Of a stretch of 64,000 nucleotides of DNA, positions 1-49,236 are shown piece after piece. Location of the stretch: assembly GCA_021832345.1 (NCBI GenBank), contig JAKBKY010000002.1:248001-312000 (forward strand). The letters are read 5' to 3'. Origin of the DNA: a bacterium (GTDB taxonomy: Bacteria; Vulcanimicrobiota; Vulcanimicrobiia; Vulcanimicrobiales; Vulcanimicrobiaceae). Numbering within the stretch: the stretch's first letter is position 1; each line of letters begins with the position of its first letter. Position numbers and translations under genes: made by a program. Under the pieces are notes generated by a model. The model was not told the DNA's origin, searched no databases, and saw only the letters and a program-made list of their open reading frames with translations.

Positions 1-288
1 AGAGTCGAGCGGCTAGGAGGCTGTCGGAGTTAAGCACGCTTCCGTCTTTGGGCCGCCTTTTACCCGAATATTTCGTTGCTCATCAGTCACGAAGCTACGG
101 CTTCGCTCCTTCTTCGCGCCTCGTCTCCGAACAAAATTCGGCGCCAAATCCGAAAACAGCTTAACTCCGATAGCCTCCTAGGGCCGATTCGTGCGCATCA
201 GGCGGCGGGCCTGCGTCGCATTCGCTGCCCGCAGCACGCCGAGGCGCAGCGTCACGCAATCTTGGACGAACACCAGGCCCACAAGTAG
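1..288 (+). pseudogene. Possible 3' end of a gene interrupted by repeat A1
   Basis: If repeat A1 is removed together with one copy of the flanking CTAG, positions 1-12 join 182-288 in one open frame. It ends at a TAG at 286-288 and would encode about 40 residues ending EAQRHAILDEHQAHK. With the repeat in place this frame stops at a TAA at 31-33 inside the repeat. I read this as a gene entering from the left that has lost its last ~35 codons. The evidence is only the restored frame and its protein-like composition; the rest of the gene lies outside the window. Confidence 0.25.
13..181 (+). repeat. Palindromic repeat element, family A copy 1
   Basis: A 169-bp element bounded by CTAG at 13-16 and 178-181. 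Its terminal inverted repeats run about 22 bp, beginning CTAGGAGGCTGTCGGAGTTA and ending with the complement, with one mismatch. The centre carries a perfect hairpin, CGAAGC-TACG-GCTTCG, near 109-124; as RNA it would have a UNCG-type tetraloop. The same element occurs inverted at 22683-22851 with the same length and only scattered substitutions. It has no gene of its own, so it looks like a non-autonomous mobile element. Confidence 0.85.
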
Positions 289-18886: not shown

Positions 18887-20212
18887 ATGCTCGAGCAGTT
18901 AAGCGACCGGCTCGGTGCGATTTTCGCACGGCTGAGCGGTCGCGGGCGGGTGAGCGAGAACAACGTGAACGAGGCGATGCGCGAGGTGCGTATCGCCTTG
19001 CTTGAAGCCGATGTCTCTCTCGCCGTCGCCAAAGAGTTTGTCGCACGCGTAAAAGAGCGGTCGACGGGCGCCGACGTCTTGGCTTCCCTGACGCCCGGGC
19101 AGACGATTCTCAAGATCGTTTACGACGAACTCGTGACGTTGCTCGGCGGCGCGCAGGAGCGTTTGCAGTTCTCCGACGCACCGCCCTCGGTCATCCTTCT
19201 CGTCGGATTGCAAGGGTCCGGTAAGACGACGCAGGTCGCGAAGCTCGCTTTGCGCTTAAAGGAGCAAGGACGTCGCTCGCTTTTGGTGGCGGCGGACGTC
19301 TATCGCCCGGCTGCGATCGCGCAGCTTCAAACGCTTGGCCGGCAGATCGACGTCCCGGTCTTCGAGCAAGGGCAGGGCGACCCGGTAAAGATTGCCCGTG
19401 ACGGCGTCGCGCAAGCTCGGCGATTAGGTCTTTCAACGGTCATCGTGGACACTGCGGGAAGACTGCAGATCGATGCACCGTTGATGGATGAACTCGAGAA
19501 GATCAGTAGTGCCGTCAAACCAAAAGAGATCCTGTTGGTGGTTGACGCTATGACCGGCCAAGAGGCGACCAACGTCGCTAAAGGCTTTCATGCGCGCCTC
19601 GGCATCACCGGTGTGATCCTGACCAAACTCGACGGCGACGCCCGCGGCGGTGCGGCGCTCTCGATCCACCGCGAAACGGGTGCCGCGATCAAGTTCGTGG
19701 GAACAGGCGAAAAAGTTTCAGCCTTGGAGCCGTTCTACCCGGATCGATTGGCATCGCGAATTCTCGGCATGGGCGATGCGCTAACGCTGATCGAGCGCGC
19801 GCAGAGCGTCTATTCCGCCGAGCAAACAAAGGCCCTCGAGCAGAAGCTTCGGCGCAAGGAGTTCACGCTTGACGACTTCCTCGAACAACTGCGATCCGTT
19901 CGCAAGCTCGGATCGATGAGTGAGATACTCAAGATGATCCCCGGTGCGTCGCGGGTACTTCCAAAAGACTTCGAGGTGCCTGAGCGAGAGCTGGGCAAGG
20001 TTGAGGCGATCATTTGCTCGATGACGATGCGCGAACGCTCGAACCCTGCGATTCTCAACGGGTCGCGGCGCAAGCGAATTGCCTACGGCAGCGGAACGCA
20101 GGTTGCCGACGTAAACCGCTTGGTCAAACAGTTCGATCAGACTCGCACCATGATGAAGTCGGTCGGCCAAGGAAAGCGGCCCGGTAAGCTCCCGTTTCCT
20201 GCCGCTCGCTAA
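18887..20212 (+). CDS. ffh: Signal recognition particle protein
   Basis: A 441-residue SRP GTPase. It has an N domain, G domain with GLQGSGKTTQVAKLA (G1), DTAGR (G3) and TKLDGDARGG (G4), then a methionine-rich M domain ending in Pro-Gly-Lys-rich sequence. It binds signal sequences and the SRP RNA, whose gene is at 43847-43962. It is followed by rpsP, a common arrangement. Confidence 0.97.
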   Translation: MLEQLSDRLGAIFARLSGRGRVSENNVNEAMREVRIALLEADVSLAVAKEFVARVKERSTGADVLASLTPGQTILKIVYDELVTLLGGAQERLQFSDAPPSVILLVGLQGSGKTTQVAKLALRLKEQGRRSLLVAADVYRPAAIAQLQTLGRQIDVPVFEQGQGDPVKIARDGVAQARRLGLSTVIVDTAGRLQIDAPLMDELEKISSAVKPKEILLVVDAMTGQEATNVAKGFHARLGITGVILTKLDGDARGGAALSIHRETGAAIKFVGTGEKVSALEPFYPDRLASRILGMGDALTLIERAQSVYSAEQTKALEQKLRRKEFTLDDFLEQLRSVRKLGSMSEILKMIPGASRVLPKDFEVPERELGKVEAIICSMTMRERSNPAILNGSRRKRIAYGSGTQVADVNRLVKQFDQTRTMMKSVGQGKRPGKLPFPAAR

Positions 20213-20277
20213 CAGAACAGCATGCCGCGTGCTTTAACGCGGTGTACTCTACAAAGAATAACGGATAGAAAACACAC

Positions 20278-20571
20278 ATGCTCAAGATCAGGTTGCGCCG
20301 CATGGGCGCCAAGAAACAGCCGACGTATCGTTTCGTCGTTGCCGACGCGCGGGCGCCTCGCGATGGGCGTTTCATTGAGATTCTGGGTCATTACAACCCT
20401 CGCACGGAGCCCAAGACGCTTGTCGTCGATGAAACGAAAGCGAAGGAATGGATCGCCAAGGGTGCGCAGCCGACGGAGACGGTCCGTCGCCTGCTGGCCG
20501 AACGCGGCATCGTGGAGCGGGGGCCACTCTCGCCGACCAAACGCAAGACCAAGAGTGCCGAAGGCGCTTAG
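20278..20571 (+). CDS. rpsP: 30S ribosomal protein S16
   Basis: A 97-residue S16. It starts [20 protein letters not shown] and contains [15 protein letters not shown], both family signatures. It is slightly longer than the average S16 owing to a Lys-rich tail. No strong ribosome-binding site is visible. Next is khpA after 2 bp. Confidence 0.97.
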
Positions 20572-20573
20572 CG

Positions 20574-21065
20574 ATGAGTGCCTTCGACGATGAGTTTGGG
20601 CTCTTCAGCGAAGGAGCCGATGAGACCGAACGCCGTTCAACCCTCGGCGCACGCAAGATTTCGGCCCGAGGAGAAAACGGCCCGCGCGTGGCCGCTGAGA
20701 AACCTGCGCCTCGCTCCGGCCCGTCCGGCCGCAGCGAGCGGCCAAGACCGATGCGTTCGGGTGGCGATCCATACGCCGGCCAGCGTCGCGCGAGTAGCTT
20801 GCTCGAATTTCTTACGAAACGGCTCGTAAGTCTTCCCGATGCAGTTCAGGTCGAACTCTTCGCCGATGAACACGGAGAACCGGTCATCGAAATCATCGTC
20901 GACCCGGAGGATATCGGCAAGGTGATCGGGCGCAGTGGACGTGTCGCCGGCGCACTTCGCACCTTGGCGCGGGCCTCGGCGCAGGATCGCGTCTCCGTCG
21001 ATATCCTCGATAGCGAAGAAGCGGCCGAGGAGACCGACGGCGAGGCAGACGAAAACGCCGACTGA
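20574..21065 (+). CDS. khpA: KhpA-type KH-domain RNA-binding protein with long N-terminal extension
   Basis: A 163-residue protein. The C-terminal ~75 residues are a KH domain with the GxxG loop in GKVIGRSGRVAGALR, as in KhpA (YlqC), normally about 75-80 residues. The first ~80 residues are low-complexity and charged (for example APRSGPSGRSERPRPMRSG), an unusual extension that may be disordered. It lies between rpsP and rimM as in many bacteria. Confidence 0.88.
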   Translation: MSAFDDEFGLFSEGADETERRSTLGARKISARGENGPRVAAEKPAPRSGPSGRSERPRPMRSGGDPYAGQRRASSLLEFLTKRLVSLPDAVQVELFADEHGEPVIEIIVDPEDIGKVIGRSGRVAGALRTLARASAQDRVSVDILDSEEAAEETDGEADENAD

Positions 21066-21066
21066 A

Positions 21067-21546
21067 CTGGCGATTGCCCGACTCGTCGGAACATTCGGGC
21101 TTCGGGGTGAACTCAAATGCGATCCGACGACGGCGGGTCGCGCGGCAATCGTGACGGGGGTTACCCTCGTGTGTGGCCGTGAGCGCGCTCGACATGAGAT
21201 CGTTATCGCCCACGTTCGGGAGCACGCCCGGCGCTTACTCGTGACGCTGCACGGAATCGATTCACTAGAGGCTGCGCAACCCTATATCGGCGAGACGCTC
21301 TACGCAGCGCCGGAGCAGATCCCGCTTCTGCCCGGTGAATACCTCGATGCAGATCTGATCGGATGTTTGCTCTACGATGACGCAGGAACCGAGCTTGGCT
21401 CGGTCGAGCGTGTCGACCACTTCCCGGCGAGCGACATGCTCGTTGTCGGCGGCAAGATGGTGCCGATGGTGCAGGCCTTTATTCGCTCGATCGATCTCGC
21501 CAAGCGCAGGATTGATGTGGATCTGCCGGCCGGGCTCCTCGAATAG
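21067..21546 (+). CDS. rimM: Ribosome maturation factor RimM, non-canonical start
   Basis: About 159 residues. The N-terminal domain reads IARLVGTFGLRGELKCDP and the C-terminal PRC-barrel DMLVVGGKMVPMV with VDLPAGLLE at the end. It is needed for maturation of the 30S head. No ATG, GTG or TTG occurs in frame near the conserved start; CTG at 21067, just after the khpA stop (TGAACTG), is the best candidate, ATT 21073 another. Translational coupling to khpA may allow it. trmD, which usually follows, is absent here; repeat C follows instead. Confidence 0.85.
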   Translation: MAIARLVGTFGLRGELKCDPTTAGRAAIVTGVTLVCGRERARHEIVIAHVREHARRLLVTLHGIDSLEAAQPYIGETLYAAPEQIPLLPGEYLDADLIGCLLYDDAGTELGSVERVDHFPASDMLVVGGKMVPMVQAFIRSIDLAKRRIDVDLPAGLLE

Positions 21547-21559
21547 ACGAGTGCAGGCC

Positions 21560-21706
21560 GTCAAGCAGGTCATATCTCATCTCGCGGGTCTTTTCGGTCG
21601 CTTCGTCGTTGCTCTTCGGTCACGAAGCTACGGCTTCGCTCCCTCATCGCGCCTAGAATCAACTCGAAAATCCCTCGCGATCTATAAGATACGCTCTGCT
21701 TGACGA
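21560..21706 (+). repeat. Palindromic repeat element C (A-type core, B-type ends)
   Basis: A 147-bp element with imperfect terminal inverted repeats: GTCAAGCAGGTCATATC at the left and the complement of GTCAAGCAGAGCGTATC at the right. Its centre is nearly identical to family A, including the CGAAGC-TACG-GCTTCG hairpin within CACGAAGCTACGGCTTCGCT. The ends carry AGCAGGTC and CTGCT as in family B. It starts 13 bp after the rimM stop and ends 6 bp before the convergent secreted-protein gene. Confidence 0.7.
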
Positions 21707-21712
21707 CCTACA

Positions 21713-22912
21713 CTAGAAGTTCTTCGGGTGCGCTAGGGCGTACCCATCGACGGCCTTCTCGATTGCCGCCTGAAGCGACCCAGCGCTCTCCTTGTTCGTG
21801 TAGAGCCGGGCGCCGAAGCACGTGTAAACGTTGAGCCGAAATGCGTTCGAGGTGGTACGTGAGAAGAAGTTCCCGGTCGTCGTCTGTGTAACGATGCCGG
21901 AGACGACCGTGGCATCTCGGTGCGTACCGCAGATGCTGCTGGCGGCAGTTTGAACGTTGGGCGGAATGCCGCCTACAAGAGTAACGCTGAAGTCCTCTGC
22001 GAGCTCTGCTTGCAGAAGATTTGTGGCGCTCGTAAGCATACCGCCCGGTAGCCCAGGGCCGGAGACACGAACGAGGAAAACGCGGCGGGGGGGCTTGACG
22101 GCCGCTGCTTCCAGGGGTTTGGGAGCGGCAGCCTTGTGTTGAAACAGCTTGAGGATGCTCTGGAGCCCGAAGCTATATGCAGTTGTGCCGGAGGCTTTAG
22201 GATTGGGCGTTGTGCTTGGTTGCGGGTTGCCTTCACCTGACGCATCGTTACGCGCGGCAACGCGATCGAGGATAACCGTCCGCGCGTCGAGCGCTTGCGA
22301 GGCGGCATCACCGACGGTGCGCAGTTGCGCCGTAGTCGAGTAGACGATGAGGCCCGTCTGTGCGCTAACGATCTGCGCAACCATGGAGGCCGAGTCGCCG
22401 AGCGGCGTCAGATAGCCGCTGATGTAGTAGTCGGCGCCCAGCTTACGCACTTGTGCCAGGTACTCACGCCGCGTGAACGTGCCGATTGGCTTAATGACGT
22501 TGATGCCCCCCGACTGACGAATCGTCACATCGAAGATCTTGGCGACGGTGTGGCCGGAGTTCTTCGGCAGATCGCCTGCGCGCTCGAACGGGAAGATGAC
22601 CACCCGAGGCCCGTTGACCACGGGTGCGGGGCTTGGCTTGGCCGCCGCCGGCTTGACGTGCGCAGCGCTCGGTGGGACGGTTCTAGGAGGTTGTCGGAGT
22701 TGAGCCGTTTTCGGACTTGGCGCCGAATTTTGTTCGGAGACGAGGCGCGAAGAAGGAGCGAAGCCGTAGCTTCGTGACTGATGAGCAACGAAGTATTCGG
22801 GCAAAAGGCGGCCGAAAGACGGACGCGTGCTTAACTCCGACAGCCTCCTAGGCGGTGCTGCTGCCACGAGGGCAAGACAAGCTAGGGCGATGCAGACGAG
22901 AGAGCGACGCAA
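21713..22912 (-). CDS. Secreted protein of unknown function carrying an in-frame repeat insertion
   Basis: A 399-residue protein. The signal peptide is MRRSLVCIALACLALVAAA, cut near residue 20. The next ~57 residues (from RRLSELSTRPSF to about QPPRT) are encoded by repeat A2 at 22683-22851. After a Pro/Ala linker comes a domain beginning RVVIFPFERAGDLP, resembling the TolB-N-like or FlgO-like domains that sense or modulate envelope functions, then GADYYISGYLTP. The second half (~250-399) is a similar alpha/beta domain. Without the insert the gene would encode about 344 residues. Function unknown. Confidence 0.7.
   Translation of the reverse strand: MRRSLVCIALACLALVAAAPPRRLSELSTRPSFGRLLPEYFVAHQSRSYGFAPSSRLVSEQNSAPSPKTAQLRQPPRTVPPSAAHVKPAAAKPSPAPVVNGPRVVIFPFERAGDLPKNSGHTVAKIFDVTIRQSGGINVIKPIGTFTRREYLAQVRKLGADYYISGYLTPLGDSASMVAQIVSAQTGLIVYSTTAQLRTVGDAASQALDARTVILDRVAARNDASGEGNPQPSTTPNPKASGTTAYSFGLQSILKLFQHKAAAPKPLEAAAVKPPRRVFLVRVSGPGLPGGMLTSATNLLQAELAEDFSVTLVGGIPPNVQTAASSICGTHRDATVVSGIVTQTTTGNFFSRTTSNAFRLNVYTCFGARLYTNKESAGSLQAAIEKAVDGYALAHPKNF
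22683..22851 (-). repeat. Palindromic repeat element, family A copy 2, inside a gene
   Basis: A 169-bp element, the reverse complement of A1 (13-181) with a limited number of substitutions and no length change. It is bounded by CTAG at 22683-22686 and 22848-22851. It lies wholly inside the secreted-protein gene and in the one phase that has no stop codon. Subtracting a duplicated CTAG leaves 165 bp, exactly 55 codons. Confidence 0.88.
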
Positions 22913-22917
22913 AATGG

Positions 22918-23607
22918 TTAGTCCTTTATCTCCGTAACGAAGGCGCGCAGCAGATCGTTCACTTCGCAGGGGCGCTCGAGCATCGCTAGATGACCGGCTC
23001 CCGCGATGACTTCCGCTCGGGCGGCGGGCACCCGTGCTGCCAGTTGATGCGCGTACTTCGGTGGGGTCATGAGGTCCTGCTCACCAACCAATGCAAGCAG
23101 CGGAACACGAATCTCCGGAAGGCGTGCCGTGACGTCAAAGGCATTGCAGGCGAGAAAGTCGCGTTTCGTCTGAGCGGGTCCGATCGCGTGGAGCAACGTC
23201 GTGGCCAGGGCCACGCGTTGCGGCGTCGGCTCCGCAAAGAAGGCGGCCGCCAGCTCCGCGCAGACGCCGTCAAAGTCGCTCTCCAGGCGTTCCAGGATCT
23301 GCGGGGCCACCCGTAAGCGCGATCCGGAACCGATGAGCACGGTCGCTCGCAACCAGTCGGGAGCGCGTAGCGACAACTCCAGAGCAATGGCACCGCCCAT
23401 AGAACTGCCGCAGAGGACGACGGCGCGGAAACCGGCCTGCGTAACGAGAGCTTCCACGCCATCGGCGAACTGTTCGATCGAGGTTGGTGCACCTGGAGAT
23501 TGGTGACCGGGCAGATTCAGCGCGACCAGATCGGGGAAGGCCGCGCGCTGTTCCTCAAAGACCTGATTGGTACAACCGGCGCCGTGCAGGCAAAGCAATG
23601 TGCTCAT
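22918..23607 (-). CDS. Alpha/beta hydrolase
   Basis: About 229 residues. The oxyanion segment is LLCLHGAGCTNQVF, the nucleophile Ser lies in VLCGSSMGGAIALE, the Asp in LVGEQDLMTPP and the His in IAGAGHLAMLE: a complete catalytic triad. Such small hydrolases act on esters or lactones; the substrate is unknown. ATG 23607 overlaps the stop of the preceding YihY gene (ATGA), so the two are co-translated. Confidence 0.85.
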   Translation of the reverse strand: MSTLLCLHGAGCTNQVFEEQRAAFPDLVALNLPGHQSPGAPTSIEQFADGVEALVTQAGFRAVVLCGSSMGGAIALELSLRAPDWLRATVLIGSGSRLRVAPQILERLESDFDGVCAELAAAFFAEPTPQRVALATTLLHAIGPAQTKRDFLACNAFDVTARLPEIRVPLLALVGEQDLMTPPKYAHQLAARVPAARAEVIAGAGHLAMLERPCEVNDLLRAFVTEIKD

Positions 23608-24419
23608 GCAGCCAACTCCGCAAACCATGGACTGCGAGCGCTCCACGCAACGCAGAGTTCCGCGCCGAAGAGAAAGAGCGAAGCGATCACGTAGAACCAG
23701 AGCAGTAAGACGATTGGAGCCGAAAGTGCCCCGTAGATGTGGGTGAAATCGACGTGGCCGATGTAGAGCTCAAAGAGGAACTGCAGCAAGGGCCAGATGA
23801 GCGTTACGAGGATTGCGCCGGGTACGGCAAAGCGCCACGGCAGGCGCGCATTCGGCAGCACGGTGTAAAGAGTCATACACACAAAGAATACCAGACTGAG
23901 CGAAACGCTGTAAGCGACAAACTGTGCAAGGTAATGCGCATCCGGTAGACCAGTGAGGGCGACGACGACGGCGAGAACGACGGGCAGGGACATCGCCAGG
24001 ATCACGAGCACGCCGATCAACGGGAGCATCACCAGCGAATAGAGGATGCCGTGCATGAACGGGCGTCCTTTGGGGACCCCGACCGCACGATCCAGCGCAA
24101 AGGCTAGGCCGAGGAAGAGGTTCTTTCCCGACCATACGACCACAACCAGCGCAACCAGACTTGAGATGCCGCGACCGTAGATGTACGAGCGCAGGTTGGC
24201 TGCCACGAAACTATGCAGCGTCGGGGAGAATGTGTCGAAGAACTCCAGCGTTCGGCGATCGGCGTGCGGGAAGATTGCGGACGCTCCCGCCAACAAAAGT
24301 ACCGCCAGCGGAAAGAGCGCAAAAAATGCATTGAAGGCGATCGCTTGGGCGAGGAAGCCGCAGCCGTCACTTGAGAAGCGAGCCGCGGCATCGCGCAGCG
24401 TTGGAAAGAATCGCGCCAT
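23604..24419 (-). CDS. YihY/BrkB family inner-membrane protein
   Basis: A 271-residue protein with six predicted membrane helices. The family signature is near the N-terminus (AIAFNAFFALFPLAVLLLAG) and at the end (IYGALSAPIVLLLWFYV). Once described as ribonuclease BN, it is now known as an uncharacterised membrane family. Start ATG 24419 was chosen by family alignment; the open frame runs further upstream into the divergent gene. Confidence 0.85.
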   Translation of the reverse strand: MARFFPTLRDAAARFSSDGCGFLAQAIAFNAFFALFPLAVLLLAGASAIFPHADRRTLEFFDTFSPTLHSFVAANLRSYIYGRGISSLVALVVVVWSGKNLFLGLAFALDRAVGVPKGRPFMHGILYSLVMLPLIGVLVILAMSLPVVLAVVVALTGLPDAHYLAQFVAYSVSLSLVFFVCMTLYTVLPNARLPWRFAVPGAILVTLIWPLLQFLFELYIGHVDFTHIYGALSAPIVLLLWFYVIASLFLFGAELCVAWSARSPWFAELAA

Positions 24420-24442
24420 TCGATGCGGTATATCGCGAAATC

Positions 24443-24928
24443 GTGCTGCTATTCCCACCGGGGCCTCCCGTGACGCTGGCGATTGACGGTCGCGTGGTGC
24501 CGGCCTTCCACCGCGCCTATCTCTCCGGAGGCCGGGTGATCGGGCCGCTCGCACCATTTCTGACGGCCGTGGCCGACCGAATCGTCTTTACGGGGGACGG
24601 CTTTATCGTGAGTCGCGGTACGCGCAACGTTCGCGTACGCCTCGTCCCTTTCGGGCCGTCGTTGCTCTATACCGACGTCCCCCTGGCTCCGGTTCTGCGG
24701 GGGCTCGGCGCCCAGGTCTCCTACGACGGCGCTAGCCATACGCTCGAGGTGACGCTCCCGGAGCCGGGTCCCTTGCGCAGCCCCGCTCCCTTCACTCCTG
24801 CCGCACGGCAGGTGGCTCCGCGCGTGGTCTTTACGCCGCGTCCGGTGGTGACACCGCGACCGATTTGGACGGGCTCGCCGCGACCGCGGCGTACGCCGAT
24901 ACCCGCTTCATTCTGGCGACCCCCTTAA
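24443..24928 (+). CDS. Copper amine oxidase N-terminal-like domain protein
   Basis: About 161 residues from GTG 24443; the start is uncertain (TTG 24371 would overlap the divergent yihY). It contains VTLAIDGRVVPAFHRAYLSGGRVIGPL and later VRLVPFG, resembling the small stalk domain of copper amine oxidases often used in extracellular proteins. It ends in a Pro/Arg-rich tail. No signal peptide is seen from this start, which suggests that the true start is elsewhere. Role unknown. Confidence 0.5.
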   Translation: MLLFPPGPPVTLAIDGRVVPAFHRAYLSGGRVIGPLAPFLTAVADRIVFTGDGFIVSRGTRNVRVRLVPFGPSLLYTDVPLAPVLRGLGAQVSYDGASHTLEVTLPEPGPLRSPAPFTPAARQVAPRVVFTPRPVVTPRPIWTGSPRPRRTPIPASFWRPP

Positions 24929-24975
24929 ACTCGTTCCCAGGTGCCGGGTCGGGGTGTATTCTTAGGAGCACGACG

Positions 24976-25317
24976 ATGTCAAGAAGCCGGATACGCGCTA
25001 AAGACAACGAGGAACCCGCCGAGCGGCTCTGCCCACGATTCCACCGCGCCGTGGAGTTGATCGGCCGCCGCTGGAGCGGTGCGATCATTCGCGTCTTGCT
25101 GGCCGGCCCGTGCCGCTTTAACGAAATGCTCGCCGTCGTTCCCGGCATCTCGGATCGATTGCTGAGCGAACGCCTGCGCGAGCTCGAAGCGGAAGGTATC
25201 GTGGGGCGCACCGTCCTCCAATCCCCGGTGCGCAGCGTCTACGAGTTGACGCCACGCGGACGAGCCCTCGAGGGGCCGCTTCGCGCGATCGAAGATTGGG
25301 CCCAAGAGTGGCCTTGA
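24976..25317 (+). CDS. HxlR-family transcriptional regulator
   Basis: A 113-residue winged-helix protein. It has RFHRAVELIGRRWSGAIIRVL, then GISDRLLSERLRELEAEGIV and YELTPRGRALEGPL, the HxlR signatures. HxlR proteins often respond to aldehydes or electrophiles through cysteines; here a Cys lies at LCPRFH near the N-terminus as in many members. An AGGAG precedes the ATG. Targets unknown; the adjacent membrane gene is a candidate. Confidence 0.88.
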   Translation: MSRSRIRAKDNEEPAERLCPRFHRAVELIGRRWSGAIIRVLLAGPCRFNEMLAVVPGISDRLLSERLRELEAEGIVGRTVLQSPVRSVYELTPRGRALEGPLRAIEDWAQEWP

Positions 25318-36647: not shown

Positions 36648-37528
36648 GTCATCCTCACGGCGCGCACGCGCGCGAAACGCAGGCCTTGCGCGTGGCGTTC
36701 TTCGCGACGCTCGCCATCCTCCTCGTCGAAGCGTTCGGCGGTTGGTACGCCGGCAGTTTAGCCTTGCTGGCGGACGCCGCACATATGGCAACCGATGCCG
36801 CCGCCGCAGGGCTCGCGCTCTGGGCGGCCGCCGTCGCCTCGCGAGCGCCCGATGATGTCATGACCTACGGCTACGGCCGAGCCAAGGTCCTGGCGGCGCT
36901 GGCCAATGCGGCGGCACTGATCCTGGTCGTGACCATCTTGGTCTGGGCTGCCGTGCTTCGCCTGGCCGATCCGACCCCGGTGCGACTCTATGCGATGATC
37001 GCCGTCCCTGCGGCCGCGCTGATCGCCAACCTCCTCCTCTCGCTCTACCTAGCTCGACGCGGCGGCGGATCGCTCAACGTCCGGGTGGTGATCGCCCACG
37101 TGGCAGGGGATGCGGCCATCTCGTTCGGGGTCATCGTCGCCGGAATCCTGATCGCCGTCACCGGTCGCGCGGTCATCGACCCGATCGTGTCGCTCGCGGC
37201 CAGCGCCATCGTCGCCTACTCCGCCTGGGGATTAGTGCGCGAGTCGCTCGGCGTCCTCATGGAAGCCGCCCCGAGAGAGGTTCGACTGCCGGAGGTCCGC
37301 GCCGCGCTGCTAGCCCTCGACGACGTGGGGGGAGTGCACGATCTGCACTGCTGGACCCTGGCCGACGGGCGCATCGCCGCGAGCCTGCACGTCGCCGTGC
37401 CCGAGCAGACTCTCGCCCGCGCACCCGATCTGGTCGTCCGGGTCAAGCAGATCCTGAACGCCAAGTTTGCCATCGCTCATGCGACCGTCGAGGTCGAGTG
37501 CGACGACTGTGCCAGCGTCTGCCACTAG
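36644..37528 (+). CDS. Cation diffusion facilitator (zinc/cadmium efflux type)
   Basis: A 294-residue CDF protein with six helices. The metal site reads LLADAAHMATDAAA in helix 2 and VIAHVAGDAAISFG in helix 5. A His-rich N-terminus (MSHPHGAHARE) and cytoplasmic C-terminal domain follow the family plan. It exports Zn or similar divalent ions using the proton gradient. Its TAG stop at 37526-37528 lies in the CTAG that borders repeat B1. Confidence 0.92.
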   Translation: MSHPHGAHARETQALRVAFFATLAILLVEAFGGWYAGSLALLADAAHMATDAAAAGLALWAAAVASRAPDDVMTYGYGRAKVLAALANAAALILVVTILVWAAVLRLADPTPVRLYAMIAVPAAALIANLLLSLYLARRGGGSLNVRVVIAHVAGDAAISFGVIVAGILIAVTGRAVIDPIVSLAASAIVAYSAWGLVRESLGVLMEAAPREVRLPEVRAALLALDDVGGVHDLHCWTLADGRIAASLHVAVPEQTLARAPDLVVRVKQILNAKFAIAHATVEVECDDCASVCH

Positions 37529-37691
37529 AGCAGGTCGCGGAAAAGGCCCGCACATCTCTCGCACCCCGCTTTGGGTCGCTTTCGTCGTCGCTCGTTGCTG
37601 AAATGACGCGGTCATTCTGCGCTCCTCGCTCCTCGAAACCGCCTCAAAACCACGGCGCGATAGCCGCACCAGCCTTTTTCCGCGACCTGCT
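37529..37691 (+). repeat. Palindromic repeat element, family B copy 1
   Basis: A 163-bp element with terminal inverted repeats AGCAGGTCGCGGAAAA and the complement. Its centre has the hairpin AATGAC-GCG-GTCATT. It is the reverse complement of B2 (49025-49188) with one length difference. CTAG precedes it (37525-37528) with an additional AG, and follows at 37690-37693. It begins at the first base after the cation efflux stop and lies 30 bp from tRNA-Ser. Confidence 0.85.
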
Positions 37692-37721
37692 AGAAGACAC
37701 GGCACTTCCACGAACGCGATT

Positions 37722-48178: not shown

Positions 48179-49026
48179 ACGGCCCGTTGATCGCGCGAGC
48201 GCTGGACCACGAGATCGCCCAGCTTGCACTACGTCGCGAAGGCCGCGAGGAGGGCCGCGCGCTCTACCACACATTAGCGCAGGAATCGCCCGGTGGCGCT
48301 TGGGTGGCCCGCGACGAGGGCGGCGTCGTTGGGAGCGCGTTCCTCACGGGCTCACCCGACGAGCGCTACGTCAGCGAGCTCTTTGTCGAACCCGGTTTTC
48401 GTCGCCGCGGTCTGGGAACGAAACTGCTGGCCGCAGCGACAGGTGACGCTTCGCTGTCGCTCATGGGGTGTGTCGGCGCCGCACAGTACGCCGGCCTGGG
48501 CTTTGCAGCGCGGCGCGGCGACGCCGTTCACACCCCCATCCTGGATCTTGCCGGGACCCTCCCGCGCATGGAGACCCTGGCAAAGATGGCGGTCGGCACC
48601 TACCGTTTTCGCACGGCAACGATCGACGCGCTCGCACATGGCGGGGTTCTCGATGCGCTGGATCGTGAGGTGCGCGGTTACGCCGTCGCCGATCAACACG
48701 CATACTTCGCCGGGCGCGCTACCGGCACGCTCTTCGAGCTGGACGGCGAAGCGGTGGGTTACACCTACGTCTGGCCAAGCGGCCGACTCGGCCCACAGGT
48801 GATCGTCTCCTCCGCCTACGCGGTGCAGCTCCTGGGGTTCGGTCTGGCAACGCTCGCCGCTACCTACGCGGCCGCCTGGTGCACCATGTTGGTTCCGAGC
48901 GCCAATACGCGCGTTGCGTCGACGGCCCTGCGTTTAGGGTTGGACGTACAGACCACCCGGCTGCTCGCAGGAACCGCCGTCGCCGACCCGAGTCGCTCGA
49001 TCGGGTTTCACCATCTCTGGTTCTAG
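48175..49026 (+). CDS. GNAT N-acetyltransferase with tandem domains
   Basis: A 283-residue protein. The acetyl-CoA motif VEPGFRRRGLGTKLL lies in the first GNAT domain (~20-130); a second, degenerate-looking one occupies the C-terminal half. The substrate is unknown. Its TAG stop is the TAG of the CTAG next to repeat B2, so transcription runs directly into the repeat. Confidence 0.75.
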   Translation: MNGPLIARALDHEIAQLALRREGREEGRALYHTLAQESPGGAWVARDEGGVVGSAFLTGSPDERYVSELFVEPGFRRRGLGTKLLAAATGDASLSLMGCVGAAQYAGLGFAARRGDAVHTPILDLAGTLPRMETLAKMAVGTYRFRTATIDALAHGGVLDALDREVRGYAVADQHAYFAGRATGTLFELDGEAVGYTYVWPSGRLGPQVIVSSAYAVQLLGFGLATLAATYAAAWCTMLVPSANTRVASTALRLGLDVQTTRLLAGTAVADPSRSIGFHHLWF

Positions 49027-49188
49027 CAGGTCGCGGAAAAAGGCTGGTGCGGCTATCGCGCCGTGGTTTTGAGGCGGTTTCGAGGAGCGAGGAGCGCAGA
49101 ATGACCGCGTCATTTCAGCAACGAGCGACGACGAAAGCGACCCAAAGCGGGGTGCGAGAGATGTGCGGGCCTTTTCCCGCGACCTGCT
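49025..49188 (-). repeat. Palindromic repeat element, family B copy 2
   Basis: A 164-bp element, inverted relative to B1 and nearly identical, bounded by CTAG at 49023-49026 and 49187-49190. The terminal inverted repeats AGCAGGTCGCGG are present at both ends. It begins in the stop codon of the GNAT gene and separates it from a tRNA cluster. Confidence 0.85.
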
Positions 49189-49236
49189 AGTGTCGTGCGC
49201 AGGAGTGCGGACCGTCGTTGCTAATCTTTGAGCGCC

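Follow-up and report, generated by a model that had tools for sequence, protein, structure and literature searches.

A MITE with IS1182-type ends has very probably inserted into a secreted-protein gene at a CTAG within its linker, duplicating the CTAG and leaving the gene open with 55 added residues. The gene lies in the 64,000-nucleotide stretch of DNA that we analyzed, referred to here as the window, and its features are collected in Table 1. In the course of events that we propose, the element would have entered a CTAG within linker codons (CCG CCT AGA), moved in trans by an IS1182-family transposase, and the insertion would have duplicated the CTAG target. A net gain of 165 bp in a stop-free phase would have kept the gene open, translation would run through the element, and the mature protein would gain, close to its N-terminus, 55 basic residues within a linker rich in proline, where the extra residues may be near-neutral.

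Table 1. Coordinates of the host gene, the inserted element and its second full copy in the window.
Feature	Position	Strand	Basis or remark
Host gene, 399 codons, TTG start	21713..22912	-	ORF list; found in 35/60 relatives; orthologue alignment
Signal-peptide region of host gene, MRRSLVCIALACLALVAAAP	22853..22912	-	Sequence and alignment to 21 orthologues
169-bp imperfect palindromic element, in frame with host gene, encodes RRLSELSTRPSFGRLLPEYFVAHQSRSYGFAPSSRLVSEQNSAPSPKTAQLRQPP	22683..22851	-	
CTAG, one putative target-duplication copy (gene's 5' side: CCG C|CTAG)	22848..22851	.	
CTAG, second putative target-duplication copy (gene's 3' side)	22683..22686	.	
Terminal inverted repeat CTAGGAGGCTGTCGGAGTT (5' end in gene's sense)	22833..22851	-	
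Terminal inverted repeat CTAGGAGGTTGTCGGAGTT (3' end in gene's sense)	22683..22701	+	
Second full element copy	13..181	+	Intergenic by heuristic gene caller

The host gene product is predicted from its sequence to be a secreted protein of unassigned function that is kept across the bacterial family, and a Pfam and NCBIfam profile search with this protein gave no family above the cut-off. Among its homologues in other genomes, the matches to those of the closer relatives begin past the insert. We aligned 21 orthologues, all from the bacterial family of the window genome; two rows of the alignment gave no start accompanied by a ribosome-binding motif and show the open frame instead. Each of the 21 possesses a signal region at the N-terminus, a short linker rich in proline, which differs freely between orthologues, and a domain start of the VVVYPF type, and the 55-residue segment is absent from every one, across many genera. 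Fusing the own flanks of the window copy at one CTAG yields ALVAAAPPRTVPPSAAHVKPAAAKPSPAPVVNGP, which is a linker of the orthologue kind. An earlier reading of this locus, made from the sequence only, had proposed that 55 residues were inserted in frame immediately after the signal peptide, and had named as refuting outcomes a segment common to all orthologues or a broken gene; the alignment bears the proposal out, with the cleavage site placed by inspection only, and a broken gene is ruled out by an ORF that is intact through to its conserved end.

It is unlikely that translation truly begins at a site downstream of the element, such as the GTG in PVVNGP, in which case the element would be only open leader DNA and the signal peptide would have been lost. 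Although this GTG is in the right frame past the element, and the heuristic gene caller did put its start after the element, the upstream signal-peptide region and the AAAGGA that precedes it are intact, in frame and aligned with the orthologues, and the caller's choice stems from the unusual composition of the signal and linker codons. The other end of the gene carries a different palindromic element (window 21554-21716), which has CTAGTGTAGGCCGTCAAGCAG-like ends and a 49-bp core in common with the 169-bp repeat but other arms. The last CTAG of that element is the stop codon of the host gene itself, so that both the start region and the end of the gene carry an element.

The sequence-only reading had also placed the 169-bp repeat inside the gene and counted it as 55 net codons in the only stop-free phase, and both statements proved exact, with CTAG found at both ends and one phase in six open in the window copy and in the family consensus alike. 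The reading of the element in the gene starts at CCT AGG, and the net gain of 165 nt supplies residues 22-76 of 399. Since a CTAG within a gene is limited to two phases, the third being a TAG stop, and the element can enter in two orientations, one such insertion in four should be readable, and the phase of the window copy thus needs no special selection; the in-frame event looks like a tolerated chance in a flexible linker. On either strand the element folds much more stably than shuffled sequence, with z = -6.6 for the coding-strand RNA and z = -9.4 for the other strand, and an Rfam search of positions 20000-25000 gave no structured-RNA match up to E = 1. With its inverted partner at the start of the window it forms an inverted pair of 177 nt at 93%.

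The window's own genome holds 10 other copies that are 93-97% identical to the window copy over most or all of its length, and 28 matches in total when old and partial ones are included; the family also occurs in related genomes, and these copies together rule out a chance repeat. CTAG flanks both sides in 29 of the 37 copies that we compared, the inverted repeats being CTAGGAGGCTGTCGGAGTT, and in nine of the 37 the outer arms differ from the consensus but match each other. The length of the element varies as well: L066:4656-4711 is a 56-bp hairpin with little beyond the element's two ends, and a similar short form is present in L096, while four loci of genome G020 (L090, L091, L092 and L093) hold variants of 222-223 bp with an extra stretch of ~54 bp, a two-piece longer form that is common in genomes G096 and G097. 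A third palindromic family, with CTAGCAGGTCGCGGAAAA ends, has copies at window 37525-37693 and 49023-49190 that are 100% complementary over 157 nt, and L180 is a complete element with ends near-identical to those of this family, whose transposase scores best as IS5. CTAG itself is scarce in the whole window, with 64 occurrences observed where base composition would predict 223 and a Markov model 94.

To place the family relative to genes, we took the 46 full-length copies in regions of G000 and G020, with 213 other nearby CTAG sites as control and genes called by a simple codon-usage heuristic caller. Copies sit exactly on the CTAG that holds the TAG stop of a neighboring gene in 24 of 46 cases, compared with 37 of 213 background sites (p = 3e-6); the excess is strong in G020 (18/30 versus 8/81) and does not reach significance in G000 by itself (6/16 versus 29/132, p = 0.21). 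By the caller, no copy lies deep inside a gene (0/46, or one when the window copy is counted), compared with 94 of 213 control sites (p = 2e-9), which places almost every copy between genes or at a gene end and makes the window copy an exception. The window copy escaped the caller, which gives signal and linker codons low scores, and other N-terminal cases may be missed for the same reason. Most of the apparent in-frame extensions of other copies are chance long frames, and the copy in L071 lies on the TAG stop of its upstream gene. The census suggests a rule whereby an element that targets CTAG often lands on TAG stops, keeps them, and multiplies with little damage. The CTAG ends of this element read as TAG on both strands, which would let a gene's CTAG stop survive insertion in either orientation, and its single stop-free frame of 55 codons would spare some in-gene insertions; we offer only tentatively, as a rather doubtful idea, that the element is built for little harm, with outer arms that match within single copies as if the hairpin had corrected itself during movement. 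Our literature search found no account of CTAG insertion at stop codons, of palindromic IS1182 MITEs or of MITEs in Eremiobacterota.

Less probable still than a downstream start is a protein-coding palindrome of the kind described in Rickettsia, retained for a useful peptide or belonging to a family adapted to translation. Among 31 copies, 25 keep the stop-free phase open, and the same genome contains a likely second in-frame N-terminal case, a glycosyltransferase gene (L047:3579-4646) that reads MNP, then the element, then the enzyme; the element lies three codons past the ATG, and orthologues 69-71% identical are without it, while a GTG closer to the domain is a possible alternative start. 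In this gene 19 bp (CTAGGAGGCTGCCGGAGCT) that are the same as the left end of that copy reappear just past the element. A weaker in-frame candidate is found in G020, in an ABC-transporter gene. Against a family adapted to translation, the synonymous share of changes in the open frame of the 31 copies is as simulated (0.347 versus 0.321, p = 0.23), with no excess and no sign of protein-level selection, which fits non-coding mobile DNA as our explanation expects, and with few exceptions the copies are located outside genes or on stop codons.

Base-level evidence for duplication of CTAG comes from other copies of the element, in G020 compared with G096 and G097, two genomes of the same genus that are ~95% identical to G020 in the regions compared; the genus of the window is represented by one genome. 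When 165 bp are removed from one G020 copy, the locus aligns without gaps to both G096 and G097. At the target of this copy G096 reads CCAG and G097 reads differently, and as neither has CTAG there, we infer the duplication from the two CTAGs of G020 itself. At another G020 copy, only one CTAG is present in G096; its TAG is the stop codon of the upstream gene, a stop that G020 retains. For a third G020 site, the G096 counterpart is longer by four bases, which a simple CTAG duplication does not explain. At L081:15414-15582, compared with L193 and L196, the element is present in G020 and G097 and G096 has CGCGCTAG, which may be an older empty site or a loss scar. That these base-level empty sites belong to other copies, with none for the window copy, is the one point in favor of a 55-residue segment that is ancestral and was lost from other lineages, a history made exceedingly improbable by its absence from all the aligned orthologues and by the presence of the same 169 bp at unrelated loci of its own genome.

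Transposase searches of relatives yielded complete elements with the same ends, L183 (1.55 kb) and L164 (1.54 kb). The transposases of both exceed the NCBIfam cut-off for IS1182 and fall below the IS5 cut-offs, and the right end of L183, TAGGAGCCTGTCGGAGTT, has no mismatches to the family-A query, with three for L164. A near-identical end, CTAGGAGCCCGTCGGGGTT, occurs at 10 contig ends in genome G017, as expected of an unassembled multicopy insertion sequence. The 169-bp element is too short for a transposase gene, and a search for PF01609 and PF13751 transposases gave no matches in the window's own genome, so the mover is deduced from relatives and the copies in this genome may be stranded. 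The element is best read as a non-autonomous IS1182-type MITE that duplicates its CTAG target. In a relative, G008:C1 has ~29 PF13751 matches, most with identical scores, suggesting a recently multiplied insertion sequence.

A comparator group for this element is the IS1182 family, in which complete elements of related genomes match its terminal inverted repeats, but from which it differs in having no transposase gene and in being palindromic over its whole length. Some IS1182 members are described as targeting palindromic sequences (Siguier et al., in the statement cited in PMC5678879), and for IS1272, a member of this family, replacement of inverted repeats with no duplication has been reported (PMC5678879), whereas the 169-bp element duplicates CTAG. 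IS5 has the target YTAR, which is mostly CTAG, an under-represented tetranucleotide (PMC5493358); the CTAG target is alike, but the L164 and L183 transposases, whose elements have the family-A ends, score as IS1182. The open frames of MITEs fused in frame with host genes, for example intragenic ERIC elements, have been described as not unusual (PMC10969869), and the present element has other ends, another target and another host group. Rickettsia palindromic elements (RPEs) are palindromes of a reported 100-150 bp that insert in frame and leave the gene open (PMC3767692, PMC10969869), and nearly half of those first reported lay in genes (PMC10969869). The likeness to them drawn in the earlier reading holds for the outcome at this locus, where an element that is slightly longer and palindromic throughout leaves its host gene open, but does not extend to membership of that family, given the IS1182-type ends, the CTAG duplication, the autonomous partners and the few copies within genes, with one secure and one likely in-frame case against 24 of 46 copies on stop codons. 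The host is also not a member of the Rickettsiales and belongs to a different phylum, the Eremiobacterota. The locus presents, in a phylum that has received little study and outside Rickettsia, a mobile hairpin that lengthens a protein and leaves it unbroken, and the element is an additional IS1182-type MITE that is RPE-like in its effect at this locus and not in its ends or distribution.
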